DNA of 64,000 nucleotides from Cupriavidus taiwanensis LMG 19424. Lineage in GTDB: Bacteria; Pseudomonadota; Gammaproteobacteria; Burkholderiales; Burkholderiaceae. Within the stretch, counting starts at the first letter, position 1. Each line of letters starts with the position of its first letter. The position numbers and the translations under genes were made by a program. Below, in pieces: positions 26,416-63,980 of the stretch. The DNA is taken from contig NC_010529.1 in NCBI RefSeq assembly GCF_000069785.1, positions 493,201 through 557,200 on the forward strand, written 5' to 3'. Below the pieces are notes generated by a model. That model made no database searches, was not told the DNA's origin, and was given only the letters and a program-made list of their open reading frames with translations.

Positions 26416-26466
26416 CACGCGGAAAATGCTGCAACGGTACCGGCTGGCTCGATTCGCGCGGCACCT

Positions 26467-29982: not shown

Positions 29983-30026
29983 GTTAAGCCAACTTTGGCG
30001 AAAATTTCACGAATCCCGGCCGACCC
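29983..30026. repeat. Right inverted repeat of Tn-1
   Basis: Complement begins GGGTCGGCCGGGATTCGTGA. The outer end faces right; the next bases are TCGTA, unlike the CAGGA that precedes the left end. Confidence 0.85.
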
Positions 30027-30177
30027 TCGTATACCATCACCATCCTCGTGGTCACTGAACCCCCACGGTCGTTCATTGCTGCCCGTCGGACCAAATCAAA
30101 CCACGTTTAGCCGTGTGGCATCCCCAGTCGGAAGCGGTCCCGGGCACCGACTTCCGGTCAATGCATGTGTGTCTGCG

Positions 30178-44565: not shown

Positions 44566-44638
44566 TGATCCGGCGGGTGGGGCCGACCACCGGAAGGCTG
44601 ACGTGCTTCCTCGGTGGGAATTTCCGATCCCGCAGTTC

Positions 44639-44677
44639 GGGGTAGTCGTCCTTTTTGTGCAAAATCTTACGGTTTCC
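44639..44677. repeat. Left inverted repeat of Tn-2
   Basis: Starts GGGGTAGTCGTCCTTTTTGT; matches the complement of 50610-50648 at 38 of 39 positions. Confidence 0.88.
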
Positions 44678-44802
44678 CCGCAAAGCCTTTCTTTATAAGG
44701 CGCTCCGGGCAAAGCAGACAGCTGCCTGCTGCCCTCAAGTGACTTCGGGAGTACCATGTCCGCCCGCGATTTCGGATCGTGTCACCTGGATGGGGGCGGA
44801 AG

Positions 44803-47727: not shown

Positions 47728-47759
47728 CAAGAAGAACGGACCCTCCGGAGCCAGACTGA

Positions 47760-49051: not shown

Positions 49052-49419
49052 GGCCAAGGGGAGCAAATAGCGATGGTGCGGATGCGTATTGTCGCGCTTG
49101 TCTGGCCTCCATGACCATTTCGGAATCCTCTTGTGCGTTTCGCCACCTCGAATCGCTCCACGTCCGGGGCTATTCGTGAGGAGCTGCAGGGCGCTCTGCG
49201 CCGCCCAGCTGCCTGAACTTCTCCGTGATCGGGTCCGTATGGCGCCGTAGATCGCGAGCAGGTGTGCGGGCGCACGATCTTGCCGGTAAGGGGCATTCGT
49301 CAAGAGTTGCCCAGGTGCAACAACGCCCGGGCCGGTCGAGACCGCGGAAGGTTGCCCAGAGGCTGTGAGCCATTTCGTACTAGCGGGCCGGTTGGAGAGC
49401 CTCTCGCCAGGGCCTCACA

Positions 49420-49513
49420 CGTGATAATCTGCCATTATCACCTGTCAAAAATCGACGAGAATCCGCTTGCTTGACGGCTCCATTTGGTATGTATATACAT
49501 AGTACGTAATACG
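49420..49513. promoter_or_regulatory. Candidate resolution site of Tn-2
   Basis: GTGATAAT (49420-49427) and ATTATCAC (49433-49440) form a perfect inverted repeat with a 5-bp spacer, a typical tyrosine-recombinase core. Downstream lie the palindrome TATGTATATACATA (49488-49501) and the decamer ACGTAATACG (49504-49513), shared with the other two recombinase/KfrA intergenic regions. The decamer ends 21 bp before the TnpT-like start codon. Confidence 0.55.
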
Positions 49514-49534
49514 GTATCAAATTATAGGAGCACC

Positions 49535-50527
49535 ATGGCCCGTGCCGGTCTAAGCCGTCTGGATGTCAAACGCGCCCGCGATTCGTTGATGGCCCAGGGG
49601 CAGCATCCGTCGATCGATGCAATACGTATCGCGCTGGGCAATACCGGCTCGAAAACGACGATTCACCGCTATCTCAAGGAACTGGAAGAAGAGGAAGGCG
49701 GGGCGCTCCAGCGGGCCGGCTCGACCTCCGATGCCATCCTGGATCTGGTAGGCAGGCTGGCGGCACGGCTGCACGAAGAAGCGCAGGCAGTGGTCGACCA
49801 GCAGGTCGCGGCCGCCACCGCACAGCGGCAGCAGGTCCGAGCGGAAGCCGACAAGCTGTCCGCTGATCTCGTCGCACTTCGCGCCGAACTGGCGCAGGCG
49901 CATGCCACCGTTGCCGAAGTGCGGGCCGCGCACAGCGACACGCAGACGGCGCTGCAGCAGCGGGCCCTGGAGGCCGAACGGCTGGCGCAGCAGGTCCAGG
50001 ATCTCACCGAACGGCTGGCCGAACACGAAGGCTTCCGGCGCTCGCTGGAGGAGAAGCTGCAGCACGCACACCAAGCACTGGAACACTTCCGCAACGCCAG
50101 CAAAGAGCAGCGCGATCAGGAGGCACGCCGGCACGAGCAGCAGGTCCAACAACTGCAGGCAGAAACCCGGCAAGCCAATCAGGCGCTGATCGTCAAGCAG
50201 GGGGAGATCACGCAACTGAACAAGGACGGCGCACGGCTGGTCGCGGAGATTGCCGCCTCGGCCAAACGCAGCCGCGGCCTGGAGACGCAGGCGGAACAGG
50301 CACATGCCGGGCTGAACCAAGCTCGCGTCGATCAAGCCCGTGCGGAAGCCGAACGCGATGCCCTGCGCTCCGCGGTCCAGCAGCAAGCGGACGAGCTAAC
50401 CGCCGAGCGTGCCGCGCGCGAGCGCCTGGCCGGCGAGTTGGCCAAGGTCACCGGACGGCTCGACGCCCAGCAGCAGTTGCTGGCCGACTATCGGACACAG
50501 CTCGGCGTGGCTGGTCCGGCAGCTTGA
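49535..50527 (+). CDS. TnpT-like KfrA-family coiled-coil protein of Tn-2
   Basis: A 330-residue protein from the ATG at 49535, preceded by TAGGAG. The N-terminal KfrA_N domain is clear: GLSRLDVKRARDSLMAQGQH followed by AIRIALGNTGSKTTIHRYL (about residues 3-50). The rest is a long coiled coil rich in Gln, Ala, Glu and Arg. It is divergent from the recombinase across the candidate resolution site, the TnpS/TnpT layout of Tn4651-like transposons. It differs from the island KfrA-like copies, which lack this exact HTH. Confidence 0.75.
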   Translation: MARAGLSRLDVKRARDSLMAQGQHPSIDAIRIALGNTGSKTTIHRYLKELEEEEGGALQRAGSTSDAILDLVGRLAARLHEEAQAVVDQQVAAATAQRQQVRAEADKLSADLVALRAELAQAHATVAEVRAAHSDTQTALQQRALEAERLAQQVQDLTERLAEHEGFRRSLEEKLQHAHQALEHFRNASKEQRDQEARRHEQQVQQLQAETRQANQALIVKQGEITQLNKDGARLVAEIAASAKRSRGLETQAEQAHAGLNQARVDQARAEAERDALRSAVQQQADELTAERAARERLAGELAKVTGRLDAQQQLLADYRTQLGVAGPAA

Positions 50528-50530
50528 ATG

Positions 50531-50554
50531 CGTAAGGTTTTGCACAAAAAGGAT
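50531..50554. repeat. Subterminal copy of the Tn-2 inner repeat
   Basis: CGTAAGGTTTTGCACAAAAA and its next four bases match 50616-50639 of the right inverted repeat at about 21 of 24 positions, as a direct repeat 85 bp inward. It may be a relic end or a second TnpA-binding site. Confidence 0.5.
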
Positions 50555-50609
50555 GGCTCTTGCGAAATCGGCGGATTTTCAACCCATTGATTCACAAGGA
50601 AAATCTGGA

Positions 50610-50648
50610 GGAAACCGTAAGATTTTGCACGAAAAGGACGACTACCCC
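50610..50648. repeat. Right inverted repeat of Tn-2
   Basis: Complement starts GGGGTAGTCGTCCTTTTCGT. The sequence after it is the interior of a KfrA-like coiled-coil gene. Confidence 0.88.
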
Positions 50649-51383
50649 GTGCAGGCGGAGCTGGCGGCCGAACGCCAGGCGCACGCTGCCACGCAGGCCC
50701 GGCTCGAGGCGGGGCGAACGGAACTGGAGGCGGGCCGACGCCAGCTGGACGCCTTGCGCACCCAATTCTCGACGGAGCTGGAGCGCGCCCGCGAGGCGGT
50801 GACGCTCGCGCAGGAACGCGCCGAGGCCAGCGAGCGGCGCAGCTTGCGCGAACTGGACCAGGAGCGCACCGCGCGCCAGAAGAGCGAGCGCACGGCCGAA
50901 GACCTGCGCGCGGAACTGGCGGCGGCGCGCAGCGAGGCCCGTGATGTGGCCGTGGCGCAGGCGGAGAGCCGCGCCAAGCTGGAAGCGCAGGCCGCGGCGC
51001 TGGCCGACCGACTCGCAGAGGCCGAGCAGGCGCAGCGCCAGGCGGCGGGCGATCTTGATGCCATGCAGGCGGAGCTCGCCGCAGCGCAGCGCCGGGCCGA
51101 GCGGGCCGAAGCGGAAGCCGCGCTCGCGCGTCAGTTGCTGGCCACCCTGCGCGTCGCGCCGCGCGAACGCGACGGCGGTGGCGGTGGTGGAAGGCGGCGC
51201 AAGGGCGGCCGTTCGGCGGCGACCGCGCCGGAAGCGCAGGGCGACGGTCAGGGGGACGCTCAGCAGGATGAACTGGGCGAAGCGCAGGGTGAAGAGCGGG
51301 GCGACGCGCCGGGGGCGGCGCCCCCCAACCATCAGGACGAAGGCAACGACAGCAGTGACGGCAGCGATGACAGCAAAGACTGA
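50649..51383 (+). pseudogene. KfrA-like coiled-coil protein, copy B, 3' half
   Basis: From the end of Tn-2 the frame reads VQAELAAERQAHAATQARLE and continues as coiled coil for about 245 residues, closely matching copies A and F. The C-terminus has a low-complexity tail (GDGQGDAQQDELGEAQGEER) ending SDDSKD. The N-terminal DNA-binding domain is absent, and no matching 5' half is found left of Tn-2. The last 17 nt overlap an H-NS-like start codon, as in copies E and F. Confidence 0.75.
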
Positions 51384-51416
51384 GCGGGCGGACGCGAATC
51401 CGCTGGATCCAGGCGC
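51367..51416 (+). pseudogene. H-NS-like gene remnant after copy B
   Basis: The ATG at 51367 begins MTAKTERADA as in the intact H-NS-like gene at 52930, but one extra A in GCGAATCC shifts the frame and similarity stops at about 51416. It is a short remnant of the partner gene. Confidence 0.7.
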
Positions 51417-51507
51417 AGAGGGGCGTAGGCGAGAAGCGAATGACACGCAAGAGACAAGGTCTCACCGTCCATGGGATTAGGAAGCGTCTGCACGGGCAGT
51501 GGCTTCA

Positions 51508-52755
51508 ATGAAGGAGAACAAATTGGCCCCAGAGCAAGAAGTTGAACCCCGTGTCGCGAGCAATGCGACGGACGGACTCGGTCAGATGGAGCTTCCCATC
51601 GCTGAGGCGATGCGCGACGCGGATCCCGCCATGGGTGAAGCCAGTGGTGCAGGCGTCGGTCGTGGCAGCGTTGACACGCAGGCCCAACGCTTGGACTTCT
51701 GGTCGACAAGCCGGGATAGCGGCCCGACGGCGACCGTGTCCTATCGGCGCCGGCGGTCTTACGCCCCCCCGGACGCTTCAACGGAAGACGTGGCACCGGA
51801 AGCATCGAGGGAAGCTGCCGCCTCGGCAGCGTTGACGGAATCCGACGCGCCGGAAGCGCCCATGGAAGCCATGTCCTCGGCAGCGACCACGGAAGCCGTG
51901 GCCGAAGCTCCGGTTGAAGTCCTGGCCACGGACGAACCGATGGAAGCTGCCGCCCAGGACGAACTGACCGAAACGGCCGCCCCGGTAGCACCGCTTGACG
52001 CCCCAGCTCCGGAAGCTGCGCCGGAAGAGACGCGGGCCCCTAAGCGCGGTCAGAAGCCGAAAGCGCTCACCGAAACTGCCGCTCCGGAAGCTGCGCCGGA
52101 AGAGACGCGGGCCCCGAAGCGCGCTCGGAAGCCGAAAGCGCTCACCGAAACTGCCGCTCCGGCAGCTGCGCCGGAAGAGACACGGGCCCCGCAGCGCGCT
52201 CGGAAGCCGAAAGCGCTCGCCGAAACTGCCGCTCCGGAAGCAGCGCCGGCAGAGAGGCGGGCCCCGAAGCGCGCTCGGAAGCCGAAAACCCTAGCCGAAG
52301 TTGCCGGTCCGGAAGTCACGACTCAAGAGACCCCATCCCGGAAGCGCGGGCCGAAGCAGATAACTCTGCCTGGAGCGCCGACTCAGAAGCCGCAAACCCG
52401 GAAGTCGCGACAGGAGCAAAAAACGCCTACCGCAACCCAAAGCCCGTCCCAATCCTCACTGCTCGCTCAACTGGCATCTGTCAATGCGCAACTTGAGCAG
52501 TTGCGAGCCACGGAAGTGCCAAAGGTCGTAGAGGAGATTCGGCAGTGGATGCAGGAGTACGACCTCAGCATTGAGGACATTGCGGGCAAGCCCAGTGTTG
52601 CGCCCGCTGCCCGCGCTGCTCCGACCAAGACGAAGGCCGCGCCGCCTCCGAGGTACCGCAACCCGAAGACGGGCCAGACCTGGTCGGGGCGCGGTCGGGC
52701 TCCCGCGTGGATTGGCAAGAAGCGCGAGCGTTTCCTAATCGATCTCTTGTCCTGA
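51508..52755 (+). CDS. Long H-NS-family protein with 25-residue repeats
   Basis: A 415-residue protein from the ATG at 51508. Residues about 1-165 are Ala/Glu/Pro-rich and low in complexity. Four 25-residue repeats follow (about residues 167-266), each with the pattern TRAPKRxxKPKALTETA: basic, proline-rich and like histone H1 tails. A coiled segment (SSLLAQLASVNAQLEQLRAT) precedes the C-terminal H-NS DNA-binding motif: YRNPKTGQTWSGRGRAPAWI. The order of dimer helix and then H-NS motif at the C-terminus is normal, but the long basic repeat region is unusual. Likely a nucleoid-associated or xenogeneic-silencing protein. Confidence 0.75.
   Translation: MKENKLAPEQEVEPRVASNATDGLGQMELPIAEAMRDADPAMGEASGAGVGRGSVDTQAQRLDFWSTSRDSGPTATVSYRRRRSYAPPDASTEDVAPEASREAAASAALTESDAPEAPMEAMSSAATTEAVAEAPVEVLATDEPMEAAAQDELTETAAPVAPLDAPAPEAAPEETRAPKRGQKPKALTETAAPEAAPEETRAPKRARKPKALTETAAPAAAPEETRAPQRARKPKALAETAAPEAAPAERRAPKRARKPKTLAEVAGPEVTTQETPSRKRGPKQITLPGAPTQKPQTRKSRQEQKTPTATQSPSQSSLLAQLASVNAQLEQLRATEVPKVVEEIRQWMQEYDLSIEDIAGKPSVAPAARAAPTKTKAAPPPRYRNPKTGQTWSGRGRAPAWIGKKRERFLIDLLS
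52006..52305 (+). repeat. Four tandem 75-bp repeats within the long H-NS-like gene
   Basis: Units start at 52006, 52081, 52156 and 52231, each beginning GCTCCGG(A/C)AGC. The first two differ at a few positions only; the fourth has diverged most at its end. Repeat number is likely to vary between strains. Confidence 0.85.
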
Positions 52756-52946
52756 ACGACAGGTTGGCGGGCGCGGCCGGTCCGCCCATTCCGACTCGCA
52801 AACTCGGCAGGCCGGAAGTTCGGCGGCCACTGTGCAGGAAGCCCAAGGGGAAGAGCCGGGCAACGAGCCAGGGCCGGCGGCGCTGGCCTAACAACCAGGA
52901 CGATGGCAACGACAGCAGTGACGGCAGCGATGACAGCAAAAACTGA
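52756..52946 (+). pseudogene. KfrA-like 3' tail remnant, copy D
   Basis: After the long H-NS-like gene the last ~60 bases (to 52946) encode GNDSSDGSDDSKN, the terminal tail of the KfrA-like family, overlapping the H-NS-like start at 52930 by 17 nt. The preceding bases are a degraded, proline- and arginine-coding stretch. Only the 3' end of this copy survives. Confidence 0.55.
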
Positions 52947-53193
52947 GCGGGCGGACGCGATCCGCTGGATCCAGGCGCAGATGGACGACTACGGGCTCAC
53001 CCTCGAAGAGCTCGACGCGGCGGGGTGCTTCGCGCCACCGCCCCCGCCACCGGCCGCACCGCCGCCGCCGGTGGTCTGCTACCGCAACGCGGAAGGGCTG
53101 ACCTGGGATGGGCAGGGCGAGATGCCGTCGTGGCTCAAGCGCGCGGTCAATGCGGGGCAATCGGTGGAGTTTTACCGGGTCGGGTCCTTGTAG
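52930..53193 (+). CDS. Short H-NS-like protein (copy D)
   Basis: An 87-residue protein: an N-terminal helix (TERADAIRWIQAQMDDYGLT), a Pro/Ala linker (about residues 39-52) and a C-terminal H-NS DNA-binding motif (CYRNAEGLTWDGQGEMPSWL, then KRAVNAGQSVEFYRVG). The family motif is (Y)RN..G.TW.G.G..P.W(L/I). The start at 52930 is chosen by comparison with copies E and F. The normal H-NS N-terminal oligomerisation domain is replaced by a short helix, so it may act through the coiled-coil partner. It lies just upstream of the tmRNA promoter. Confidence 0.8.
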   Translation: MTAKTERADAIRWIQAQMDDYGLTLEELDAAGCFAPPPPPPAAPPPPVVCYRNAEGLTWDGQGEMPSWLKRAVNAGQSVEFYRVGSL

Positions 53194-53211
53194 CGCCCCA
53201 TGCAATCGGCC

Positions 53212-53239
53212 TTGACGCTGCCGGCAGGACGCGTAGAAT
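53212..53239 (+). promoter_or_regulatory. Sigma-70-type promoter of the permuted tmRNA
   Basis: TTGACG (53212-53217), a 16-bp spacer and TAGAAT (53234-53239) lie just upstream of the tmRNA acceptor piece; transcription would start near 53246. Confidence 0.6.
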
Positions 53240-53246
53240 CTGGACC

Positions 53247-53560
53247 GTTGGGTGCTGCAAGGTTCCCGATAATGGTTGTGAACCTTCTTCTTGAAGGCCT
53301 TCTGGACGGCGGTTCGATTCCGCCCAGGTCCACCAGAAGCGCATTGCACGGATAGTGCGCTTCTGATGGGCCTGACCTGGTTTCGACAGGGGGAGATAGG
53401 GTCGTGAGGCAACTCGTCAGAGAAGACGTTAAAACTAAATCGAAGTAAATGCTAACGACGAAAAGTTCGCATTGGCCGCCTAATAGCCGCCTTGGGTTGT
53501 AACTGACCTCGAAACAGAAAAGTTACTGACAAGGGCTCCTTCGGGGGCCGTTGTTCATTT
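53247..53560 (+). ncRNA. ssrA: Circularly permuted (two-piece) tmRNA gene
   Basis: The 3' acceptor piece comes first: T-stem GGCGG/CCGCC around TTCGATT, then CAGGTCC-A-CCA ending at 53335. A 32-nt spacer follows with a perfect 10-bp stem (CAGAAGCGCA/TGCGCTTCTG). The coding piece starts at 53368 with GGGCCTG, which pairs with CAGGTCC of the acceptor piece, including the G3-U wobble that marks alanine tRNAs and tmRNA. The tag frame at 53451-53483 reads GCT-AAC-GAC-GAA and on to ANDEKFALAA, then TAA-TAG. A UUCG-capped hairpin (GGCTCC/GGGGCC) lies near 53532-53550. Processing would yield two RNAs joined by base-pairing. The 5' and 3' outer ends are approximate. Confidence 0.88.
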
Positions 53561-53585
53561 GAGGGCTTGGCATCGATGGCAGCAT

Positions 53586-53756
53586 GGGGTCATCGTACTT
53601 TCCATGCAAAAAGTGGCGGTAGCAGACAGCAGAGCCGCCCGCAGCAAGGTTTCTCGGCGCAATCAATCACACACCGACCGAGCATTGTAAGTTCTTGATA
53701 AGAAAGGGCTTTCTGGAGCATACCGCCAGAAAATGCACGGAAAGTACAACTACCCC
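53586..53756. mobile_element. 171-bp Tn3-like miniature inverted-repeat element
   Basis: Near-perfect terminal repeats of about 35 bp: GGGGTCATCGTACTTTCCAT from 53586 and, on the complement from 53756, GGGGTAGTTGTACTTTCCGT; both continue to a TGGCGGTA. The sequence resembles the Tn-2 inverted repeat (GGGGTAGTCGTCCTTTTTGT). No ORF fits inside. This is the structure of a TIME (Tn3-derived inverted-repeat miniature element). Flanks AGCAT and ATAAG show no duplication. It lies between the tmRNA and the DUF262 operon. Confidence 0.65.
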
Positions 53757-53803
53757 ATAAGTGGCGATAGACTATCTCGTTGAACGTGCCACATGGGGTG
53801 AGG

Positions 53804-54928
53804 ATGAACCAAGGCGAAAACGCGAGCGAACGAGACGTTGAGGGATTGGACGAGGGCTCCGGCGATGGATGGGGCGAATACCCTTTAGATGCGGTATTCG
53901 TTCGGACGGAGACTCGCTCCGTTTCCGAGGTCGTCAAGCGCATACAAAATCAACGCTACGTTCTTGATCCGGACTTTCAGCGAGATTTCGTGTGGCCAAA
54001 TCCGAAGCAGTCCAAGCTAATCGAGAGTTGCGTGATGCGCATCCCTCTCCCCGTTTTCTATGTTGCGGAAGCTCTGGACGGTCGGATAATCGTTGTCGAT
54101 GGCCTGCAACGTCTGACCACCTTCGCTCGTTTTCTAGGTGACGAGTTGAAGTTGACTGGTTTAGCGAGCGACAACGTAGGACTAGGTGCTCACGTGCTCG
54201 AGGGAAAGTACTTCAAAGACTTGCCTCTCAACTTGCAGGAACGTGTTCAGGATACGCAGCTCACTATGTATATCTTGGATGCAAAAGCCCCCGAGCGAGC
54301 GCGACTCGACATCTTCGAACGGGTGAACAGTGGTGAACCGCTTACGCGTCAGCAGATGCGAAATGCGCTTTATAACGGACCGGCGACCCAATGGCTTAAG
54401 CAAGCGGCCGAAAGCGACGCGTTTCGCTCCGCGACGGGCCAGTCTCTCAATGCGAAAACCATGCGCGATCGGGAGGCTATCAATCGGTTCTGTGCCTTCA
54501 AACTTCTTGGCCGGAAACAATACACTGCTGGAGACATGGATCGGTTTCTTGCCGAAGGGCTAAGAGCACTTACACGTCTTAGTCAAGCAGAGAGGGAAGA
54601 ACTTTTATTCTCCTTCGAGAGAGTCATGGCCTTGAACCGAGCCTTATTCAGCGACCATGCGTTTCGTAAATCCCTCGCGTCGCAAAACCCAGGCGCCGGG
54701 CGCAGTGTCATTAATATCTCCCTGTTCGAAGTATGCTCCGTCACGATGTCTGATGATGGCTTTTCGAATCTCGAATCGCGGCACGACGCCCTACGTGAAG
54801 CCATCGTTGACCTTGTCCGAGACGAAGAATTTGCACGCGCAATTACCTATTCGACCAACAGCACTGCAGCTGTTCAAAAGCGTTTCGAGGCAATGGAATC
54901 CACTCTCTCGAAGGTGGCGCAAAAATGA
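53804..54928 (+). CDS. DUF262-domain protein
   Basis: A 374-residue protein from the ATG at 53804 (GGGGTGAGG upstream). The DUF262 (GmrS/ParB-like nucleotidase fold) hallmarks are present: FQRDFVWPNPKQSKLIES (about residue 55), ALDGRIIVVDGLQRLTTF with the DGxQR motif (about 95), and ERVNSGEPLTRQQMRNALY (about 175). The C-terminal DUF1524 HNH nuclease found in GmrSD-type enzymes is absent. It overlaps the ATPase gene by ATGA, so the two are coupled. DUF262 proteins act in modification-dependent restriction and other defence systems; this context suggests a three-gene defence operon. Confidence 0.85.
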   Translation: MNQGENASERDVEGLDEGSGDGWGEYPLDAVFVRTETRSVSEVVKRIQNQRYVLDPDFQRDFVWPNPKQSKLIESCVMRIPLPVFYVAEALDGRIIVVDGLQRLTTFARFLGDELKLTGLASDNVGLGAHVLEGKYFKDLPLNLQERVQDTQLTMYILDAKAPERARLDIFERVNSGEPLTRQQMRNALYNGPATQWLKQAAESDAFRSATGQSLNAKTMRDREAINRFCAFKLLGRKQYTAGDMDRFLAEGLRALTRLSQAEREELLFSFERVMALNRALFSDHAFRKSLASQNPGAGRSVINISLFEVCSVTMSDDGFSNLESRHDALREAIVDLVRDEEFARAITYSTNSTAAVQKRFEAMESTLSKVAQK

Positions 54929-56055
54929 TTAAGACGCTCGATATCGAGAATTTCAAGTGCTTCTCAAGTCTGCGCTTGCGTTTCGGCGCTTTAACTCTGC
55001 TGACTGGCTTCAATGCTGGCGGAAAATCAAGTGCCGTCCAGCCGCTGCTCCTCTTGGCGCAAGCTTTGCGGACATCGGCATCAGCACAAAAGTTACCTTT
55101 GAATGGTCCAATTGTGCATTTAGGCACCGTTGGTGATGTACTGCCGGCGAATGCTTCTGGATCAAGTTTGGCTTTCAAGGTTGCAGGCGTGGAACACGAG
55201 GTCACGTGGACGACCTCGGCTCGCGCGAGTGAAAGACATCTCGAGGTGACTGAATCACGCATTTGCGATGTTGCCGGTTCAACGAATACGCCGCCTACCG
55301 AAGCCATTAAGGAGCCCTCGACTGAGGTTTGCCGTTCGATTACAGGGCTTTCCTACCTGAGCGCCGTGCGCGATGGCCTTACCGACGCTTACCCCATGCC
55401 CGAATCTGATGAGGAAGTGACAGATGTGGGCGCTGACGGTAGGTTTGCTCCGTACTGGTACGATCGGTATGTTGACGATGAAGTGCAAGTTGCGCGTCGA
55501 CATCCTGGCGAGCCTGCGAGTTCCCTTCGCAAACAGGTTGACGCTTGGTTAGCTACGCTCTTTCCTCACGCACAAGCTAATGTCCATCACGTCCCCCAGG
55601 TATCACTGGAAAGCCTGCAGTTTCGCATTTCCGATTTTGGAGCCTGGCGGAGACCCGCCAACGTCGGCTACGGATTTACCTACGCTTTCCCTATTCTCAT
55701 TGCTCTGCTAGCAGCTAACGATGGGCAAATGATAGTGATTGACAGTCCGGAGGCTCACCTGCATCCATTTGCCCAGTCGCAAATGGGCCGACTGCTCGCC
55801 CACTTCGCAGCTGCCGGCTTACAAGTTGTAGTAGAGACCCACAGCGACCACCTGCTGAACGGTGTGCGCCTCGCCGTGAAAGAAGGCCTGCTTCCACCGG
55901 ATGAATTATGCGTCCACTTTTTTAGTGGAACGACAGAGACCGGACACGGGGTACTAACGCTAGCTGTCGATAATGAAGGTCGCATCGCCAGTTGGCCAGA
56001 AGGATTTTTTGACCAGTCTGAAAAAGACTTGGCTCGGCTCTCAGGTTGGGAGTGA
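54925..56055 (+). CDS. AAA ATPase of the OLD/RecF-like DUF3696 type
   Basis: A 376-residue ABC-type ATPase. The P-loop GFNAGGKSSAVQPL (about residue 30) follows the typical start IKTLDIENFKCFSSLRLRFG. Late motifs are QMIVIDSPEAHLHPFAQSQM (Walker B with SPEAHLHP) and VVVETHSDHLLNGVRLAVK (switch H). The C-terminal VDNEGRIASWPEGFFDQ is the DUF3696 signature. No TOPRIM nuclease domain is present. It is translationally coupled to the DUF262 gene and followed within 2 bp by the third gene. Likely the sensor or energy module of a defence complex. Confidence 0.88.
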   Translation: MIKTLDIENFKCFSSLRLRFGALTLLTGFNAGGKSSAVQPLLLLAQALRTSASAQKLPLNGPIVHLGTVGDVLPANASGSSLAFKVAGVEHEVTWTTSARASERHLEVTESRICDVAGSTNTPPTEAIKEPSTEVCRSITGLSYLSAVRDGLTDAYPMPESDEEVTDVGADGRFAPYWYDRYVDDEVQVARRHPGEPASSLRKQVDAWLATLFPHAQANVHHVPQVSLESLQFRISDFGAWRRPANVGYGFTYAFPILIALLAANDGQMIVIDSPEAHLHPFAQSQMGRLLAHFAAAGLQVVVETHSDHLLNGVRLAVKEGLLPPDELCVHFFSGTTETGHGVLTLAVDNEGRIASWPEGFFDQSEKDLARLSGWE

Positions 56056-56057
56056 GG

Positions 56058-57029
56058 ATGCGCTGGTATATCAATGATGCTTCTTTGCAAGGCCAATACA
56101 ATGACGTACCTGAATTCCTCGCACTGCTACAGGGTCTCTTATCCTCAAGAAGCAGATTCGCTGTACTGAAGTCCGCCCTACACACTACACGAGCTCTCCC
56201 CCATCGAAATGTGACGGTCAGCCAGACACTTCGTGAAGTCTTGGCGGCGACAAACCTAGCCGATCTGCGCAGGGCCGTGTTGATATGGCTTGATCGGACA
56301 GGGCCGTTCTTGGATGACGATCGCCAGCCTGAACCGGAAGATTATTTTGAGTGTCTGGGTGTCGACGTTACTAACACCGGCTTGGGGGAAGCGACGAGGC
56401 GCATCAAAGCAGGTAATGAAGCTACTGCGTTTAGTTTTCCGGGTGGTGTGATCGAGTTTGGGAGATCACCGCTTCCAGTGGATCATGGCATTGCGGAAGA
56501 CCGTCGAGGGACTTACGAAGTCGAAAACCTCTGGGCGCTTGATAGCCTCGCGACTTCCGCCATGAACGCTGGAGTGGAGCCGACCAACTGGCAACAGCTT
56601 GTAGTGGCTGCGCGCGAGAGATTTCCCAGACTGCACATTCCCAATAGTCTCTATGAGAATAGTGTACTTGCCAAGGAACCCTTTGAGGCACCGATACGGG
56701 ACCGAGCAATGGCACTCTTCAAACACCTTGATGACTATATGGCCGGGCGTATGCCTGATGGCTCAGAAGGCCCCAACGCTCGCGCTATTGTCGATCAGTT
56801 CTTCACTGGGGATAGAGCTCTATTCTCGGGGGAATCACCTACAAATAAACGCACATTCAAGCAAGAGATGACCTTTCCCGATCCGGACGATGCAAGCAAG
56901 GAGATATTTGCACACTGGCATGGGAAAATCAGCCACCGCTATTTCCGATTGCATTTCGAATGGCCGGTTGCAGTCGATGCAACGAGGCTGAAAATCCTCT
57001 ATCTGGGGCCCAAGATCACGAAGGACTGA
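56058..57029 (+). CDS. Unknown third component of the DUF262/ATPase operon
   Basis: A 323-residue soluble protein of unrecognised family. The N-terminus (MRWYINDASLQGQYNDVPEF) and a block GPFLDDDRQPEPEDYFECLG look globular and acidic; the C-terminal half has EEC-free but conserved-looking WHGKISHRYFRLHFEWPVAV ending in LKILYLGPKITKD. It starts 2 bp after the ATPase stop with GAGG upstream, so it belongs to the operon. Just after its stop the DNA becomes a KfrA-like fragment. By position it is probably the effector; no nuclease motif is evident. Confidence 0.75.
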   Translation: MRWYINDASLQGQYNDVPEFLALLQGLLSSRSRFAVLKSALHTTRALPHRNVTVSQTLREVLAATNLADLRRAVLIWLDRTGPFLDDDRQPEPEDYFECLGVDVTNTGLGEATRRIKAGNEATAFSFPGGVIEFGRSPLPVDHGIAEDRRGTYEVENLWALDSLATSAMNAGVEPTNWQQLVVAARERFPRLHIPNSLYENSVLAKEPFEAPIRDRAMALFKHLDDYMAGRMPDGSEGPNARAIVDQFFTGDRALFSGESPTNKRTFKQEMTFPDPDDASKEIFAHWHGKISHRYFRLHFEWPVAVDATRLKILYLGPKITKD

Positions 57030-57048
57030 CCCCCTTACAGCCATTTCG

Positions 57049-57718
57049 ATCTGGCAGGCCGCGAACGAGGCCGCCACCGGGGAGCTCGCCACGCTGCGCG
57101 CCGAGGCGCGGCAATCCATCGAGGTAACCCAGGCGGCGCTGGCGGCGGAGCGGCAGGCGCACGCCGCGACCCAGGCCTGGCTCGAGGCCGGCCGCACGGA
57201 ACTGGAGGCGGGCCGGCGGCAGCTGGAGGCATTGCGCACCCAATTCTCGACGGTGCTGGAGCGGGCGCGCGAGCAGGTGACCATTGCCCAGGAACGCGCG
57301 GCAGAAGAGCGAGCGCGCGACGGAGGAGTTGCGCACAGAACTGGCGGCGGCGCGCCACGAGGCGCGCGACGCCGCGGTGGCGCAGGCCGCGGCGCTGGCC
57401 GACCGGCTCGCGGCCACCGAGCAGGCGCAGCGCCAGTCAGCCGGCGACCTGGACACCGGTGCAGGCGGCGCTGGCCGCAGCACGGGGCCGGGCCGAGCGC
57501 GCCGAAGCCGACGCGGCGCTCGCGCGCCAGCTGCTGGCAGAATTGCGCCTGGCGCCGCGCGAGCGCGACTGCGGGGTTGGACGGCGGCGCAAGACCGGCG
57601 GCGCGCGGCGCCGACCACGACGGAAGCACAGGGCGAAGAGCAGGGGGCGCCGGCGCGGCCCGGCCACCCGGATGACGGCAGCGACAGTACCGATAGCAGC
57701 GATGACCACGAAAACTGA
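57049..57718 (+). pseudogene. KfrA-like coiled-coil protein, copy E, frameshifted fragment
   Basis: The sequence joins the end of the defence operon abruptly at IWQAANEAATGELATLRAEA, which lies about 85 residues into copies A and F; the DNA-binding domain is missing. The coiled coil then continues across at least two frameshifts (near 57295 and 57455) and ends with the family tail SDSTDSSDDHEN at 57718, overlapping the next gene by 17 nt. Internal deletions relative to copy F are also seen. Non-functional. Confidence 0.75.
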
Positions 57719-57956
57719 GCGGGCGGAGGCGATCTGCTGGATCCAGGCGCAGATGGCCGACTACGGCTTGACCATGGAGGAACTGGGGGCGGCGGGGTGC
57801 TTTGATCCGCCGCCGCCCCCTCCGTCCCCTGCGGCGGCGCCGGTCTGCTACCGCAACGCGGAAGGGCTGACCTGGGACGGGCAGGGCGAGATGCCGTCGT
57901 GGCTAAAGCGGGCGGTCAATGCCGGGCAGAGCGTGGAGTTTTTCCGGGTAGGATAA
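57702..57956 (+). CDS. Short H-NS-like protein (copy E)
   Basis: An 84-residue protein, very close to copies D and F: helix TERAEAICWIQAQMADYGLT, Pro-rich linker, and CYRNAEGLTWDGQGEMPSWL with KRAVNAGQSVEFFRVG. It overlaps the KfrA-like tail by 17 nt. Although the KfrA-like partner is broken, this gene is intact and may be kept for its own activity. Confidence 0.8.
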   Translation: MTTKTERAEAICWIQAQMADYGLTMEELGAAGCFDPPPPPPSPAAAPVCYRNAEGLTWDGQGEMPSWLKRAVNAGQSVEFFRVG

Positions 57957-57972
57957 GGCGCGCCTCTTGTTG

Positions 57973-59133
57973 ATGCGGTTAGACAGCACGAAGCTCAACG
58001 CCATGATCGAGGAGGGGGAGCGCTTGATCAACCCAGACGAAATACACGCGCCCGGGTCGGGCGACGAGCTTGTTTATCCGCCCGCATTGACGTTGCATGG
58101 CGGTACCGAAGCGATGCTGACTTTCGCCCTGGACGGCATGGGCGTCCTGCGCCACGTCGATGCGGTACCAAACGGCAAGCAATGTGGTTGCGTCTGCCCC
58201 GCCTGCAACGAGCCACTGATCGCCCGCCATGGGGCCGTGCGGGCTCACTCGTTCGCGCACGACTCCGGTGCGGAATGTCGGTGGGCACACGAGACTGTGC
58301 TTCATCACCTGGCCAAGGTACTGATTGCACAACGAGGGGAGTTTGCGGTACCGGGCGTTGACGTGGTGGTTGAGCGCCAGGGCCCGGTGATTCCGATTCG
58401 GGCCAGGGGATCACTGCCGGGACGGACTATCTATCCGCAATCGGTCGCCTTGGAGCACTTGCTCTTTGACGTGCGGCCCGACGTGGTGATCACCTATGGT
58501 GACCGGCTGCTGCTCGTCGAGATTGCCGTGACCCATAAGGTTGGGCAGTCGAAGCTCGCCCGCCTGCAAGAACTCGGTCATGCCGCGGTCGAGATCGATC
58601 TGAGTCGCCAGCGACCGTCGACGGTTGGCGAACTGGCGGCGGTGCTATTCCGGAATGATCCTCGCAAGAAGTGGCTGGTGAATCGAAAGCAGGACGAGCT
58701 CCGCGCACGTCTGGAAGCCCAATGCGAAGCAGATTATCAGAAGCACCTCGAGGAGACGCGGGCTTTCGAGGCAAGAGTCGCAGCGTGGCGGTCCAAAGAA
58801 GACTGTGTTGCCAATAGCTTCAAGGAGCAGACTGCCGAGCCGCTGCGCGTAGCAGAACCATCATTGGCAGCGCGTACCTCTTTGCCGGGCGTGCGGTACG
58901 CGGTTAGCGGAGGCGCGCTCGTCTTGTACAACGGGGCTGACAATTGTCTCCGGATCGCTATCGAGGGACAGCCGGAGGCGTTACGCGATGCCGTTGAACA
59001 GTTGAGCTTTGGTTCCGACGCAGTCGGCTATGCCATGACGAAATCGGCATGGGCTCGCCTGATGAGCGAGCAAGGTCATCGGTTTGGCACCATTACCAAC
59101 GACTATGAACCACCCAGTGAGGGGACGGCGTGA
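57973..59133 (+). CDS. CoiA-like protein
   Basis: A 386-residue protein. The region about residues 75-110 has a CoiA-type zinc-binding and strand-rich segment: GCVCPACNEPLIARHG, then RAHSFAHDSGAECRWAHE with conserved Cys and His. A restriction-endonuclease-like core follows: RPDVVITYGDRLLLVEIAVTH gives the D...ExA pattern. The C-terminal third is helical and then globular. CoiA is a competence protein in Gram-positives, but stand-alone proteobacterial relatives occur in mobile and defence islands. It is bracketed by KfrA/H-NS copies E and F. The start could also lie further inside. Confidence 0.7.
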   Translation: MRLDSTKLNAMIEEGERLINPDEIHAPGSGDELVYPPALTLHGGTEAMLTFALDGMGVLRHVDAVPNGKQCGCVCPACNEPLIARHGAVRAHSFAHDSGAECRWAHETVLHHLAKVLIAQRGEFAVPGVDVVVERQGPVIPIRARGSLPGRTIYPQSVALEHLLFDVRPDVVITYGDRLLLVEIAVTHKVGQSKLARLQELGHAAVEIDLSRQRPSTVGELAAVLFRNDPRKKWLVNRKQDELRARLEAQCEADYQKHLEETRAFEARVAAWRSKEDCVANSFKEQTAEPLRVAEPSLAARTSLPGVRYAVSGGALVLYNGADNCLRIAIEGQPEALRDAVEQLSFGSDAVGYAMTKSAWARLMSEQGHRFGTITNDYEPPSEGTA

Positions 59134-59369
59134 ATGAGATGCCAGTGGCATAGGGCTTCGTCGGCGAGGTTAAGGTCATAATCCTTGGTCTGGCCCGCCA
59201 AGGGCCCAACGTGCATGCGGTGGGCCTTGTGGCCTGTTCGGGCACGCCGCAGTCCTAGTCATTCACCAACAGCTCCGGGGAGTGTTCCGCGGGTGGGGGC
59301 CCGGCGTGATGAAGTCATAGACCAACGCCTGACCACGACGCCGCGCTGCAGGCTGACCTGGCCGCTGAT

Positions 59370-60416
59370 GTGGCGGAACTGCGCAGCCGCTTTCCCGAGA
59401 CCCGCGCGCTGTACCGCGAGGTCTGCGGGCTGCTGTTCTTCCGTTATGGCGTCACGCCCACCGCCAACAAGCCCTACAGCCTGGTACGCAAGGGCAGCAT
59501 GGGCACGCCGGCCGAGGTGCTGCAGGCGTTCTGGCAGGAGCTGCGCGGGCGCACGCGCGTGACCATCGACCACCCCGACCTGCCGGATGCATTGAAGGAC
59601 ATCGCGGCCGGGGCGGTCCGGACCATCTGGCAGGCGGCCAACGAGGCCGCCACCGGGGAGCTCGCCACGCTGCGCGCCGAGGCGCGCGCGGCCGCCAGCG
59701 CCGCCGAGGCCGAGCGCGCCGCGGCGCGGCAATCCATCGAGGAAACCCAGGCGGCACTGGCCGCCGAGCGGCAGGCGCACGCCGCGACGCAGGCCCGGCT
59801 CGACGCGGGCCGCGCCGAACTGGAGGTTGGCCGGCGTCAGCTGGAGGCATTGCGCACCCAATTCTCGACCGAGCTCGAGCGCGCCCGCGAACAGGTGGCC
59901 ATCGCGCAGGAACGGGCCGAGGCCAGCGAGCGGCGCGCGTTGCGCGCGAACTGGACCAGGAGCGCCGCACGGCAGAAGAGCGAGCGCGCGGCCGAAGACC
60001 TGCGTACGGAACTGGCAGCGGCGCGCCACGAGGCGCGCGACGCCGCGGTGGCGCAGGCCGAGGCCCGCGCCCGGCTCGAGGCCCAGGCCGCGGCGCTCAC
60101 CGACCGGCTCGCGGCCGCCGAGCAGGCGCAGCGCCAGTCAGCCGGCGAGCGGGACACCGTGCAGGCGAAACTGGCCGCGGTGCAGCGCCGGGCCGAGCGC
60201 GCCGAAGCCGAAGCGGCGCTCGCGCGCCAGCTGCTGGCAGAATTGCGCCCGGCGCCGCGCGAGCGCGACGGCGGTGGGGGACGGCGGCGCAAGACCGGCG
60301 GCCCGGCGCCGACCGCGCCGGAAGCCCAGAACGAAGAGCAGGGGGCGCCGGCGCGGCCCGGCCACCCGGATGACGGTAACGACAGCAGCGACGGCAACGA
60401 TGGCAACGAACACTGA
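59370..60416 (+). CDS. KfrA-like coiled-coil DNA-binding protein (copy F)
   Basis: A 348-residue protein with the KfrA_N-type domain (ELRSRFPETRALYREVCGLL, SLVRKGSMGTPAEVLQAFW), then an Ala/Glu/Arg coiled coil (about residues 85-300) and a tail ending DDGNDSSDGNDGNEH. Similarity to copy A extends upstream of the GTG to about 59337 (DAALQADLAADV), but a stop at 59310 blocks the frame and no ATG is present, so the native start and promoter seem lost. It overlaps the H-NS-like gene by 17 nt. It is the most complete island copy. Binding DNA and bridging it through the coil is likely; the target is unknown. Confidence 0.7.
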   Translation: MAELRSRFPETRALYREVCGLLFFRYGVTPTANKPYSLVRKGSMGTPAEVLQAFWQELRGRTRVTIDHPDLPDALKDIAAGAVRTIWQAANEAATGELATLRAEARAAASAAEAERAAARQSIEETQAALAAERQAHAATQARLDAGRAELEVGRRQLEALRTQFSTELERAREQVAIAQERAEASERRALRANWTRSAARQKSERAAEDLRTELAAARHEARDAAVAQAEARARLEAQAAALTDRLAAAEQAQRQSAGERDTVQAKLAAVQRRAERAEAEAALARQLLAELRPAPRERDGGGGRRRKTGGPAPTAPEAQNEEQGAPARPGHPDDGNDSSDGNDGNEH

Positions 60417-60654
60417 GCGGGCGGCCGCGATCCGCTGGATCCAGGCGCAGATGGCCGACTATGGGCTGACCCTGGAGGCACTGCAGGCGGCGGGGTGCTT
60501 TGAACCGCCGCCGCCCCCTCCGCCACCTGCGGCGCCGCCGGTCTGCTACCGCAATGCCGAAGGGCTGACCTGGGACGGGCAGGGCGAGATGCCGTCGTGG
60601 CTCAAGCGGGCGGTCAATGCCGGGCAGAGCGTGGAGTTTTTCAGGGTCGGATAA
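60400..60654 (+). CDS. Short H-NS-like protein (copy F)
   Basis: An 84-residue protein: MATNTERAAAIRWIQAQMAD, Pro-rich linker (eight or more prolines), CYRNAEGLTWDGQGEMPSWL and KRAVNAGQSVEFFRVG. It starts inside the 3' end of the KfrA-like gene (17-nt overlap), so translation is probably coupled and the two proteins may interact. Confidence 0.8.
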   Translation: MATNTERAAAIRWIQAQMADYGLTLEALQAAGCFEPPPPPPPPAAPPVCYRNAEGLTWDGQGEMPSWLKRAVNAGQSVEFFRVG

Positions 60655-60758: not shown

Positions 60759-60927
60759 AAGTACGCAACCGGTCGTTTTCGGACAGTCGTTCCCCCGTCA
60801 CGTCAGGATCGTTGGGACAAGCATAAGCAGGCGGTATGGGCTCGATACCGCAGAAGGCAATGCTTAGGGCAATGGCGTGTCGTGATGTATCCTCTTGAAC
60901 TTTATCGACATTCTTAGGGTACCGGCG

Positions 60928-61128
60928 ATGGGGGGGAGTCTTTCTACGGATGACGTACTGACAGTTTCGGAAGTGGCTGAGTACCTCAAAGTCAACGAAC
61001 GCACCGTCTATCGCCTCGCTGCGGCAAAGAAGATCCCGGCATTCAAGGTCGGGACCGCCTGGCGATTTAAGCGCGCGGAGCTGGATGCCTGGATTACGGC
61101 TCAGAGCCAGCCCCCAACAAAAGAGTAA
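60928..61128 (+). CDS. Excisionase-like helix-turn-helix protein
   Basis: A 66-residue MerR/excisionase-type DNA-binding protein: VLTVSEVAEYLKVNERTVYR is the HTH and KIPAFKVGTAWRFKRAELDA is the wing with the conserved W-R. The ATG at 60928 is preferred; the frame is open to 60895. It lies 5 bp upstream of the SNF2 helicase gene and probably regulates that operon rather than acting in excision. Confidence 0.8.
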   Translation: MGGSLSTDDVLTVSEVAEYLKVNERTVYRLAAAKKIPAFKVGTAWRFKRAELDAWITAQSQPPTKE

Positions 61129-61133
61129 CGCCC

Positions 61134-63980
61134 GTGATTACTGCCTATCACGCCAAGTACTTCGCCAGCGAGCTGAGCCGCCGCTACTCCGCGGCGGACT
61201 CTGAGAAGCTCGCCGGAACGCTTCTTGACGCCCAGGTCGACCTTAACCCGCACCAGCTCGAGGCGGCGCTTTTCGCGTTCAGGTCCCCCCTCTCGAAGGG
61301 CGCGATTCTTGCGGACGAAGTCGGCCTTGGAAAAACAATAGAAGCGGGGCTCGTGCTTGCCCAGAAATGGGCAGAAGGCAAGCGACGGATCTTAATCGTA
61401 ACGCCCGCGAATCTTCGCAAGCAGTGGACGCAGGAGATGGCGGAAAAGTTCTTCCTGCCTACAGTGATCCTCGAGGCAAAGAACTACCTTCAGCTCCAAA
61501 AGTCCGGGGTACGACGCCCGTTCGAGCAGCCTTCGATGGTGGTCTGTTCATACCAGTTCGCAGCGAAGCACGCCGAGGAACTAATGACGACCCGGTGGGA
61601 CTTGGTGATCATGGACGAGGCCCACCGACTTCGGAATGTCTACCGACCCGACAACAAGATCGGCAATACCCTGAAGCGGGCATTGGCTAACGCACCGAAG
61701 CTCCTGCTCACCGCGACTCCGCTCCAGAACTCTCTCCTCGAGCTTTATGGACTTGTGAGCATCATTGACGACTACGCCTTCGGCGACGCAAGGAGCTTCA
61801 GGACTCAGTTTGCCCGGCTTAACGGCGACGGGAATTTCAACGAGCTGAAGGCGAGGCTTAAGCCCGTCTGCCACCGTACTCTCCGCCGGCAGGTACTCGA
61901 GTACATCCGGTACACGAACCGGATTCCGATCACAGAGGAGTTCGTCCCGTCCGACGTCGAACACACCCTCTACGAGATGGTTTCAGACTACCTACGGCGC
62001 CCCTCCCTATACGCTCTTCCGAGTTCGCAGCGACAACTGATGACGCTGATCCTCCGCAAGCTGCTCGCGTCGTCGACCTTCGCCATTGCTGGCGCCTTGG
62101 AGTCCCTCGCCAACAAACTCCGCAAACAGCTCCCTGGCAACGCGTCCGCCGCCCGGTCCGGCGACGGCATTGAGGACGACTTCGAGGAGTTCGAGGAATA
62201 TGCCGACGAATGGGGTGCGGACGCCCAGCCAGAACCGCTTACCGCGGAAGACGTGGCATCAATTGACGAGGAGATAGCGTCGCTCGAGGAGTTTCGGGCC
62301 CTCGCGGTCTCAATCTCGGAGAATGCGAAGGGCATGGCGCTTCTGAAAGCGCTCCGCGCAGGCTTCGAGAAAGCTAGAGAGCTCGGGGCGGCCGAGAAGA
62401 CCATCGTTTTCACGGAGTCGCGGCGAACGCAGGACTACCTGGTGTGCCTGCTTACGGAGAATGGGTACGCCGGTAAGCTGGTGCTGTTCAACGGGTCGAA
62501 CTCCGACAAGAAGTCGAAAGCCATCTATGCCGAATGGGTGGAGGCGAATAAAGGGACTGACAAGGTCACCGGCTCCCGCACCGCTGACATTCGTGCAGCG
62601 CTTGTGGACTATTTCCGCGATCACGCGACAGTCATGATCGCGACGGAGGCAGCGGCCGAAGGCATCAACCTACAGTTCTGCTCGATGGTGGTGAACTACG
62701 ACCTCCCTTGGAACCCTCAGCGGATTGAGCAGCGAATCGGCCGATGTCACCGGTACGGGCAGCGTTACGACGTCGTAGTGGTCAATTTTCTGAACAGGAA
62801 GAACGAAGCCGACCGGCGGGTCTTTGAGCTCCTCTCTGAGAAGTTTCGGCTGTTCTCCGGCGTCTTCGGTGCAAGCGACGAGGTTCTCGGCGCAATTGAA
62901 TCGGGAGTCGAATTCGAGAAGCGCATCGTCGCTATCTACCAGAACTGCCGTACCCCCGCGGAGATCGAAGGCAATTTCCGACAGCTCCAGGAAGAAATGG
63001 ATGCGCACATCATCTCGACGATGGAGGACACACGGCAGAAGCTCCTCGAGAACTTCGACGCGGAGGTCCATGACCGCCTGAGGGTCAACTTGGACGAAAG
63101 CCGGTCTTACATCAATAGGCATGAATCGATGCTCTGGGCGCTAACGCGCCGCGAGCTCGAGGACAAGGCTGACTTCGACGCGGAAGAGCTCCGTTTCCGG
63201 CTTCTGGCCAACCCATTTCCAGAGCAAGCGATCCCCGTCGGCGCATATGCACTCGCAAAGGACCCGGGGAAAGCACACCGGTACCGGATCGGGCATCCGT
63301 TGGCCCAGGCGGTGATTGCCTCCGCGGCCGGGCGCCCCCTTCCTGAGGCCACGATCGAGTTCGTCTATTCGGACCAAGCGAGGAAAGCGGCCAGCATCGA
63401 GCCTTTTGTCGGGATGTCCGGCTACCTCCTCGCGACGAAGCTATCAATCTATGGGGCGGACGCCCAAGACCATATCATCTTGACGGCCATGACTGACGGC
63501 GGATTGGCTGTCCCGGAAGACACAGTCCGAAGGTTTCTTGAAATCCCCGCGGAGATCGTCCGAACCGTAGAGATCGACGGCGACGCAACGGTTCGCGACG
63601 CTGCCAATCGCCGGAAGAATGAGATCCTCGAAGGGCTCGCGGCCCAGCAGGCGGTCTGGTTCGATGAGGAAATGGAGAAGCTCAACGGCTGGGCAGAGGA
63701 CAAGCGCCGAGGGCTCAAGGCGGAGCTCAAGGACTATGACGACCGGATCAACGAGCTCAAGAAGCAGGCGCGCTGTGCCCCGACGCTTCCTGAGAAGCTC
63801 GAGGTCCAGAAGAAACTGCGAGACCTCGACAAGAAGCGCGACGAAGCCTGGCGCGAATATGACGGTGCTGCCAAAGACGTCGAGTGGCACAAGGACGAAC
63901 TTCTCGACCAAATCGAGGATCAGCTCCGGCAGACGGCGGCGGAAGAGGTCCTTTTCTGCGTGCGTTGGACGGTCAGGTGA
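61134..63980 (+). CDS. SNF2-family helicase (DISARM/RM-like)
   Basis: A complete 948-residue SNF2-type DNA translocase. Motif I: ILADEVGLGKTIEAGLVL (about residue 60); motif II: LVIMDEAHRLRNVY (about 160); motif III: LLLTATPLQNSL; motifs V-VI: IATEAAAEGINLQFCSMVVN and QRIEQRIGRCHRYGQ (about 510-545). The C-terminal ~170 residues are charged coiled coil. Such helicases occur with methyltransferases in defence operons, for example DrmD of class 1 DISARM and SNF2-linked type III-like restriction systems. The following genes are outside the window, so the system cannot be named. Confidence 0.85.
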   Translation: MITAYHAKYFASELSRRYSAADSEKLAGTLLDAQVDLNPHQLEAALFAFRSPLSKGAILADEVGLGKTIEAGLVLAQKWAEGKRRILIVTPANLRKQWTQEMAEKFFLPTVILEAKNYLQLQKSGVRRPFEQPSMVVCSYQFAAKHAEELMTTRWDLVIMDEAHRLRNVYRPDNKIGNTLKRALANAPKLLLTATPLQNSLLELYGLVSIIDDYAFGDARSFRTQFARLNGDGNFNELKARLKPVCHRTLRRQVLEYIRYTNRIPITEEFVPSDVEHTLYEMVSDYLRRPSLYALPSSQRQLMTLILRKLLASSTFAIAGALESLANKLRKQLPGNASAARSGDGIEDDFEEFEEYADEWGADAQPEPLTAEDVASIDEEIASLEEFRALAVSISENAKGMALLKALRAGFEKARELGAAEKTIVFTESRRTQDYLVCLLTENGYAGKLVLFNGSNSDKKSKAIYAEWVEANKGTDKVTGSRTADIRAALVDYFRDHATVMIATEAAAEGINLQFCSMVVNYDLPWNPQRIEQRIGRCHRYGQRYDVVVVNFLNRKNEADRRVFELLSEKFRLFSGVFGASDEVLGAIESGVEFEKRIVAIYQNCRTPAEIEGNFRQLQEEMDAHIISTMEDTRQKLLENFDAEVHDRLRVNLDESRSYINRHESMLWALTRRELEDKADFDAEELRFRLLANPFPEQAIPVGAYALAKDPGKAHRYRIGHPLAQAVIASAAGRPLPEATIEFVYSDQARKAASIEPFVGMSGYLLATKLSIYGADAQDHIILTAMTDGGLAVPEDTVRRFLEIPAEIVRTVEIDGDATVRDAANRRKNEILEGLAAQQAVWFDEEMEKLNGWAEDKRRGLKAELKDYDDRINELKKQARCAPTLPEKLEVQKKLRDLDKKRDEAWREYDGAAKDVEWHKDELLDQIEDQLRQTAAEEVLFCVRWTVR

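Follow-up and report, generated by a model that had tools for sequence, protein, structure and literature searches.

A KfrA-like/H-NS-like gene pair as the apparent right half of a recombination module found about once per chromosome or plasmid in many Cupriavidus

Integrons are headed by a divergent tyrosine recombinase gene, followed by a mostly co-oriented array of genes. In the TnpS/TnpT-rst system of Tn4651-subgroup Tn3 transposons, two inverted-repeat pairs lie between the recombinase gene and a divergent helper gene (PMC7157771, excerpt). The XerS/difSL and XerH/difH systems use a single recombinase, with xerS adjoining its own site, and IMEX elements, including vibriophages and a gonococcal island, integrate at dif (PMC5357621, excerpt). 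KfrA and H-NS have been used as markers of mobile elements, although the available part of that source does not describe them as a pair (PMC10561277). Here, we analysed the final 64 kb of a 557-kb contig (NC_010529.1) of Cupriavidus taiwanensis LMG 19424, whose genome consists of three contigs and 6.48 Mb; this whole stretch is referred to as the window. A first-pass annotation of the window described at least five copies of a KfrA-like/H-NS-like gene pair (kfrA-hns) between blocks of cargo genes, but drew no tie between the pair and a recombinase and core site beside the first copy. We found that the pair seems to form the right half of a recombination module present about once per chromosome or plasmid in many Cupriavidus. 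Among the matches listed for titles and abstract starts in the open-access literature, a scope outside which most subscription papers fall, there was neither a KfrA/H-NS pair linked to a recombinase and its site nor a Cupriavidus array of this kind.

The architecture of the module was read from 40 stretches around kfrA heads. Its order is a divergent tyrosine recombinase gene (intA), a core site TAGACATAA-N6-TTATGTCTA, a second palindrome, kfrA and an overlapping hns (Table 1). The window has one core site, before copy A, while 100 shuffled sequences had none, and the site is also single in the whole C. taiwanensis genome when two or fewer mismatches are allowed. An alignment of 20 intergenic regions with that of copy A revealed a near-invariant TAGACA[T/G]AA-N6-TTATGTCTA and the palindrome ATTACGTAGTAAT, of which TTACG..GTAA is present in 49 of 52 heads. 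In 47 of 49 heads, a crude start finder placed the kfrA ATG 97–109 nt downstream of the first base of the site. The AT content is on average 66% at the site, compared to 28% over the 500 bases beginning 110 nt past its start. In the 40 head stretches, a tyrosine recombinase is often encoded directly upstream of kfrA on the opposite strand; among 48 distinct heads for which 2 kb or more of upstream sequence was available, it was full-length in 28, present as a piece in 10 and absent from 10. The candidate catalytic residues of IntA (R241, K275, H364, R367, H390 and Y399) are each conserved in 28 or 29 of the 32 recombinases aligned. Counterparts of the window genes occur on a plasmid of C. taiwanensis SWF66294, and the toxin and antitoxin genes between intA and the site were located by their offset from the site on the matching plasmid (L096).

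This layout resembles TnpS/TnpT-rst in having a tyrosine recombinase with catalytic residues, a divergent helper gene and a site between them (28/48 heads with full-length divergent intA). IntA is 47% identical to the recombinase encoded on the transposon interrupting copy A, and both helpers possess KfrA_N, a domain shared by all three KfrA-like proteins that the window encodes. A direct BLAST comparison of kfrA-A with the helper of that transposon was not significant (E-value of 0.2); a reference TnpT was not among the sequences compared. Unlike TnpS/TnpT-rst, the Cupriavidus module is not Tn3-bounded, occurs about once per replicon, including chromosomes, and has an overlapping H-NS gene and arrays of scars and cargo. 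It also lacks a fixed tnpA: matches to this gene occurred in 15 of the 40 head stretches, where they were scattered and in several cases partial. That the pair is itself a transposon was rejected based on its variable 5′ ends, although terminal repeats were not systematically searched. Like the KfrA proteins of broad-host-range plasmids, those of Cupriavidus have a KfrA_N domain and a predicted long helical tail (PMC7783346, excerpt), but their gene overlaps an H-NS gene and faces a recombinase.

We determined how widespread the module is in 60 Cupriavidus genomes and an outgroup of 136 Burkholderiaceae genomes from outside the genus. The kfrA N-terminus was found in 37 Cupriavidus genomes, in two of them weakly, and the exact core site in 35, all of which are among the 37. 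No outgroup genome contained the core site when no mismatches were allowed; more distant kfrA relatives occur on plasmids of Paraburkholderia, Caballeronia and others. The 66 exact sites were spread over 65 contigs, one of which (G024:C1) holds two sites with different spacers. Because draft contigs are not replicons, the claim of one site per replicon is weighted on ten near-complete genomes with at least two sites, each on a different contig (G007, G023, G025, G029, G030, G035, G039, G042, G044 and G057). The product of the probabilities that all these sites fall on different replicons is about 4 × 10−8, a rough figure for which several replicon lengths were estimated from genome totals. Among 51 pairs of replicons from the same genome, 26 had identical spacers, whereas 4.0 would be expected (p ≤ 5 × 10−5). 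Here and below, p values are a guide only, as related genomes are not independent.

On chromosomes, the site lies near dif. In each of the 16 contigs of chromosome size that carry a site together with a single dif-like sequence, the two are 16–239 kb apart, a mean of 4.4% of the half-length (Fisher p = 2 × 10−10). One contig with two dif sequences (G042:C1) was excluded, and a seventeenth, added by hand (G024:C9), has its site 325 kb from dif. The module resembles the single-recombinase Xer/dif systems in its one recombinase, its roughly one site per replicon and its position near the terminus of chromosomes. Unlike in those systems, a XerCD-type dif is present besides, genes for KfrA and H-NS are attached and the plasmid sites are not near dif. 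Dif-like sequences occur on many Cupriavidus replicons, and their 6-bp centre mostly differs among the replicons of a genome.

The evidence for exchange comes from genome G029, where four replicons (C3, C7, C8 and C9) carry two left arms and two right arms in all four combinations, one left arm with and the other without intA. When compared in 100-nt steps, the shared side is 99–100% identical, whereas the other side is 32–42% (left) or 71–94% (right) identical. The switch in identity falls at the core site, and the spacer is TCAAAC in all four. This is strong evidence for natural recombination at the core site in G029. In other pairs of heads, similarity often starts at base 0 of the site, although some pairs start or end elsewhere. 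Because spacer DNA diverges fast, such an onset in moderately alike heads is weak evidence alone, and our inference of exchange was based on near-identical pairs.

Copies of the pair further inside the arrays differ from the heads. The survey of 141 kfrA-hns matches yielded 120 distinct copies, of which 43 were 5′-complete and 77 were 5′-truncated. A core site was located within 260 bp of 34 of the 5′-complete copies, whereas 75 of the 5′-truncated copies had none. The truncated copies reached the hns end in 44 cases, up to about a dozen of which may represent the hns that follows a long H-NS gene. Thirteen copies were complete at the 5′ end and cut at the 3′ end. All copies have a single orientation in 150 kb of pBB1, 100 kb of pMTS1 and 100 kb of a C39 plasmid. 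Genomes contained up to 34 H-NS matches, among the matches listed, and up to 17 kfrA-start matches. Medians of pairwise dN/dS (0.176 and 0.182) do not separate inner from head hns, so selection on inner copies cannot be claimed.

A comparison of the window with itself (BLASTN) revealed five related units, all on the forward strand, in agreement with the number of copies first described. Nucleotide identities were 73% (A–F), 79% (A–B), 67% (A–E), 71% (B–E), 76% (B–F) and 79% (E–F), with 85% over 151 nt for B–D, 81% over 335 nt for D–E and 82% over 319 nt for D–F. At 67–85% identity, the copies are homologous DNA and not convergent coiled coils of low identity. Pfam detected KfrA_N in copies A and F, and Histone_HNS, the C-terminal DNA-binding domain of H-NS, above the cut-off in hns-D, hns-F and long gene C. 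The 17-nt overlap of kfrA and hns reported for copies B, D, E and F is exact in all four. Outside the window, 25 of 39 intact hns open reading frames (ORFs) overlap kfrA by exactly 17 nt and one by 20 nt, while 13 have no such stop.

Although the copies are real, nowhere in the window is a whole pair present, as every copy is damaged; the short hns is intact in copies D, E and F. In copy B, hns is frameshifted after about a dozen codons, and kfrA-F has a possible GTG start at 59370. The break seen at 57030–57050, where the sequence drops into the middle of a kfrA, was located near 57049, but 5′ truncation is common among inner copies. Copies B and D, previously counted separately, belong to one recurrent B–C–D arrangement, in which a long H-NS gene lies between an hns stub and a second kfrA tail with hns. 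Nine loci have a long H-NS gene at the equivalent place after kfrA (L098, L100, L102, L103, L105, L106, L108, L114 and L126), and 10 of the 43 distinct 5′-complete units stop 140–230 nt before the hns end. Copies A and B are not the halves of one transposon-split gene, because their sequences overlap by ~550 nt at 79% identity. Both Tn3-family transposons are inserted within kfrA copies while carrying their own recombinase and KfrA-like genes. Their inverted repeats lie at 17183–17228 and 29983–30028 (copy A) and at 44638–44677 and 50610–50649 (copy B), the latter being where the 5′ part of kfrA-B was lost.

Table 1. Features of the module, the kfrA-hns copies and the cargo in the window, in window positions.
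Feature	Position	Strand	Basis
Tyrosine recombinase gene intA, divergent from copy A	14010..15281	-	Phage_integrase E 3e-14; aligns with XerD
VapC-like toxin and Phd/YefM-like antitoxin genes, between intA and site	15361..15974	-	SWF66294 plasmid annotation (L096)
Core site TAGACATAA-GCGGAT-TTATGTCTA	16062..16085	+	Sole window match with <=3 mismatches
Second palindrome ATTACGTAGTAAT, possible helper-protein site	16118..16130	+	Sequence; kept in intergenic alignment
Copy A: kfrA cut at its 3′ end by a transposon, hns missing	16160..17186	+	KfrA_N, self-BLASTN, sequence
Tn3-family transposon cutting copy A; own recombinase and KfrA-like gene	17183..30028		46-nt inverted repeat, Pfam
Tn3-family transposon cutting copy B; own recombinase and KfrA-like gene	44638..50649		40-nt inverted repeat, Pfam
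Copy B: 5′-truncated kfrA (stop 51383), start of hns (ATG 51367) with frameshift	50650..51480	+	Self-BLASTN, sequence
Copy C: long H-NS-like gene with 75-nt repeat	51499..52755	+	Histone_HNS 3e-12, repeats
Copy D: kfrA tail (stop 52946) and whole hns (52930-53193)	52838..53193	+	Pfam, self-BLASTN
Permuted beta-type tmRNA, cargo	53198..53557	+	RF01850, 287 bits
Cargo operon: GmrSD_N (DUF262), AAA/DUF3696, unknown protein	53780..57029	+	Pfam
Copy E: 5′-truncated, frameshifted kfrA and whole hns (57702-57956)	57047..57956	+	Self-BLASTN
Cargo: CoiA_N-domain protein	57967..59133	+	Pfam 6e-7
Copy F: kfrA minus first codons (stop 60416) and whole hns (60400-60654)	59329..60654	+	Pfam, self-BLASTN
Cargo: HTH_17 protein and SNF2-type helicase	60895..63980	+	Pfam
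17-nt overlaps of kfrA and hns	B 51367-51383; D 52930-52946; E 57702-57718; F 60400-60416	+	Sequence

All cargo reported between the copies (the long H-NS gene, tmRNA, DUF262 operon, CoiA-like gene and SNF2 helicase) is present, and the pair is a conserved unit that also separates variable cargo in other Cupriavidus replicons. The block after copy F probably extends beyond the window end, because in SWF66294 (L087:20720–32645) the SNF2 gene is followed on the same strand by genes for a DNA methyltransferase, a DEAD/DEAH helicase and an N-6 DNA methylase. Genes up to 6 kb downstream of a unit are co-oriented with it in 159 of 219 cases (p = 1.6 × 10−11), a count that includes genes occurring in more than one record; near heads alone, this was 223 of 357. 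To quantify defence functions, 138 of 209 distinct cargo genes called were sampled, 135 of these were mapped to loci and 130 proteins were scanned, after exclusion of two transposon cargo genes, the long H-NS gene and two very long proteins. Six proteins with an H-NS domain and three with a Tn3 transposase were still included. The control consisted of 128 proteins, from 129 genes with one long gene excluded, on one 50-kb stretch from each of three megaplasmids. PADLOC matched 243 families from the cargo and 23 from the control, where counts are of families, not proteins, and many models overlap. Among 25 of the 243 cargo families were Pycsar, DRT5, DrmD, CBASS-type cyclase, ThsA and TIR models. 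Annotated loci agree with defence cargo (TIR, CBASS phospholipase, SIR2, NACHT or restriction-like genes), and other loci have metabolic or metal-efflux genes behind the heads.

Two further genes recur directly behind hns. The beta-type tmRNA of the window begins 5 nt past the hns-D stop, and the chromosome has a one-piece tmRNA (RF00023, 215 bits). Beta-type tmRNAs scored above the cut-off at 21 places in 13 of the 60 Cupriavidus genomes, and at least 8 of the 21 begin 14–18 nt past the end of an hns match (three in G044 and one each in G000, G019, G038, G047 and G054). A CpoB/YbgF-like gene with TolA-binding trimerisation and TPR domains (L110:6486–7241 and relatives) is located 74–81 nt after hns in 13 of 14 places and 117 nt after it in the other. 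It occurs behind both heads and inner copies, and its proteins are 90–100% identical.

As a head with mostly co-oriented genes behind a divergent tyrosine recombinase, the module is reminiscent of an integron. Core sites with up to three mismatches were absent between cargo blocks, except for one with two mismatches in pBB1 and one with three on the plasmid that contains the window, and IntA scored 31 bits against the integron integrase model TIGR02249 (cut-off 265). An integron-like array was rejected, as there is no core site with each cargo block. As with IMEX, DNA would be gained at a resolution site; unlike IMEX, the Cupriavidus module has a different site and a recombinase of its own, and that site remains single because it is no longer present at inner copies.

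We lean towards an explanation in which the pair makes up the right arm of a module for site-specific recombination that works like TnpS/TnpT-rst or a single-recombinase Xer/dif system, with the inner copies as its scars. IntA would recombine sites that share a spacer, helped by KfrA bound to the palindrome and H-NS bound to the AT-rich DNA, and the housekeeping job of the system would be the resolution of dimeric and fused replicons. A further replicon or a circle that has a matching site could fuse there, which would bring its own kfrA-hns and cargo beside the site and push the older kfrA-hns copy downstream. As a replicon would not stably keep two matching sites, gains would persist only where the inner site has been deleted together with part of the older kfrA, to a varying extent. 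The outcome would be site-less, 5′-truncated kfrA-hns scars, mostly in one orientation, between blocks of cargo; in the window, copy A would represent the head, with B, D, E and F as scars. Homologous recombination between copies may contribute as well.

Several observations weigh against this explanation. One contig (G035:C3) has two adjoining sites, the second inexact, and G024:C1 has two distant ones; in both, the spacers differ. On 13 plasmids, the distance between site and dif looks random (mean 45%, p = 0.67; excluding G029:C9 with two dif sequences, G038:C3 and replicons without a dif match). No full-length intA was found within 4.5 kb at 20 of 48 heads, and at three chromosomal loci (L196, L198 and L199) there is no intact kfrA-hns behind the site. 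Of the 5′-truncated copies, 28 of 77 are also cut at the 3′ end, while 5 of 77 stop where the long H-NS gene usually follows, and a few short fragments are inverted (two in L107, one each in L114 and G008). The four arm combinations come from one genome and one assembly, and the explanation does not account for how four replicons acquired them. Moreover, the far ends of the shared right arms in G029 are not sites, and one of them matches a repeated segment of ~1.3 kb.

Alternatively, homologous recombination among dispersed kfrA-hns copies might import and shuffle the cargo without the recombinase. This is consistent with copies that are 67–85% alike over long stretches, with their high number per genome and with inner copies that lack a site, but it predicts neither a conserved recombinase with about one site per replicon nor the breakpoints at the site in four G029 replicons, and we consider it unlikely. 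The earlier proposal that the pair is a homology block for swapping cargo needs amending: the sole precise exchange point found is the core site upstream of kfrA, while homologous exchange may still take place within copies. The pair may also act as a silencing unit, as the first-pass annotation suggested; the feature seen that bears on silencing is the AT-rich stretch at the site. We regard it as less likely again that the module is merely a plasmid-maintenance backbone, with arrays that result from passive plasmid fusion and decay and cargo that is incidental. KfrA of plasmid RA3 indeed serves plasmid maintenance (PMC7783346, excerpt), and one site per replicon and metabolic or metal-efflux genes behind some heads would fit such a role. 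Conversely, the module is also found on chromosomes, near dif, and the genes close to the units are mostly co-oriented and have a stronger defence character than the control stretches taken from those plasmids. Least probable, and in our view very improbable, is an integrative element that moves its cargo in and out as a unit. While the recombinase is indeed positioned at the end of a variable cargo region, no second site was found at the far end in the loci scanned, and the chromosomal sites lie near dif with differing neighbours.

Building on the site-specific recombination module, we tentatively propose that Cupriavidus has a second dif-like resolution system with a recombinase of its own and KfrA and H-NS as helpers, present about once per carrying chromosome, chromid or megaplasmid. 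Its site may act as a capture hub, at which replicons whose spacers match would swap arms and from which head-to-tail defence arrays would grow, to be locked in place once the inner site is lost, with the kfrA-hns scars as their fossil record. If true, this would account for the accumulation of defence genes on megaplasmids of soil and symbiotic bacteria in the absence of integrons, and would be a case of a resolution module recruited as a gene-capture point. It would also provide a testable reason for an H-NS gene that is translationally tied to a KfrA-type helper, and DNA exchange may be limited to certain replicons by their 6-bp spacer.

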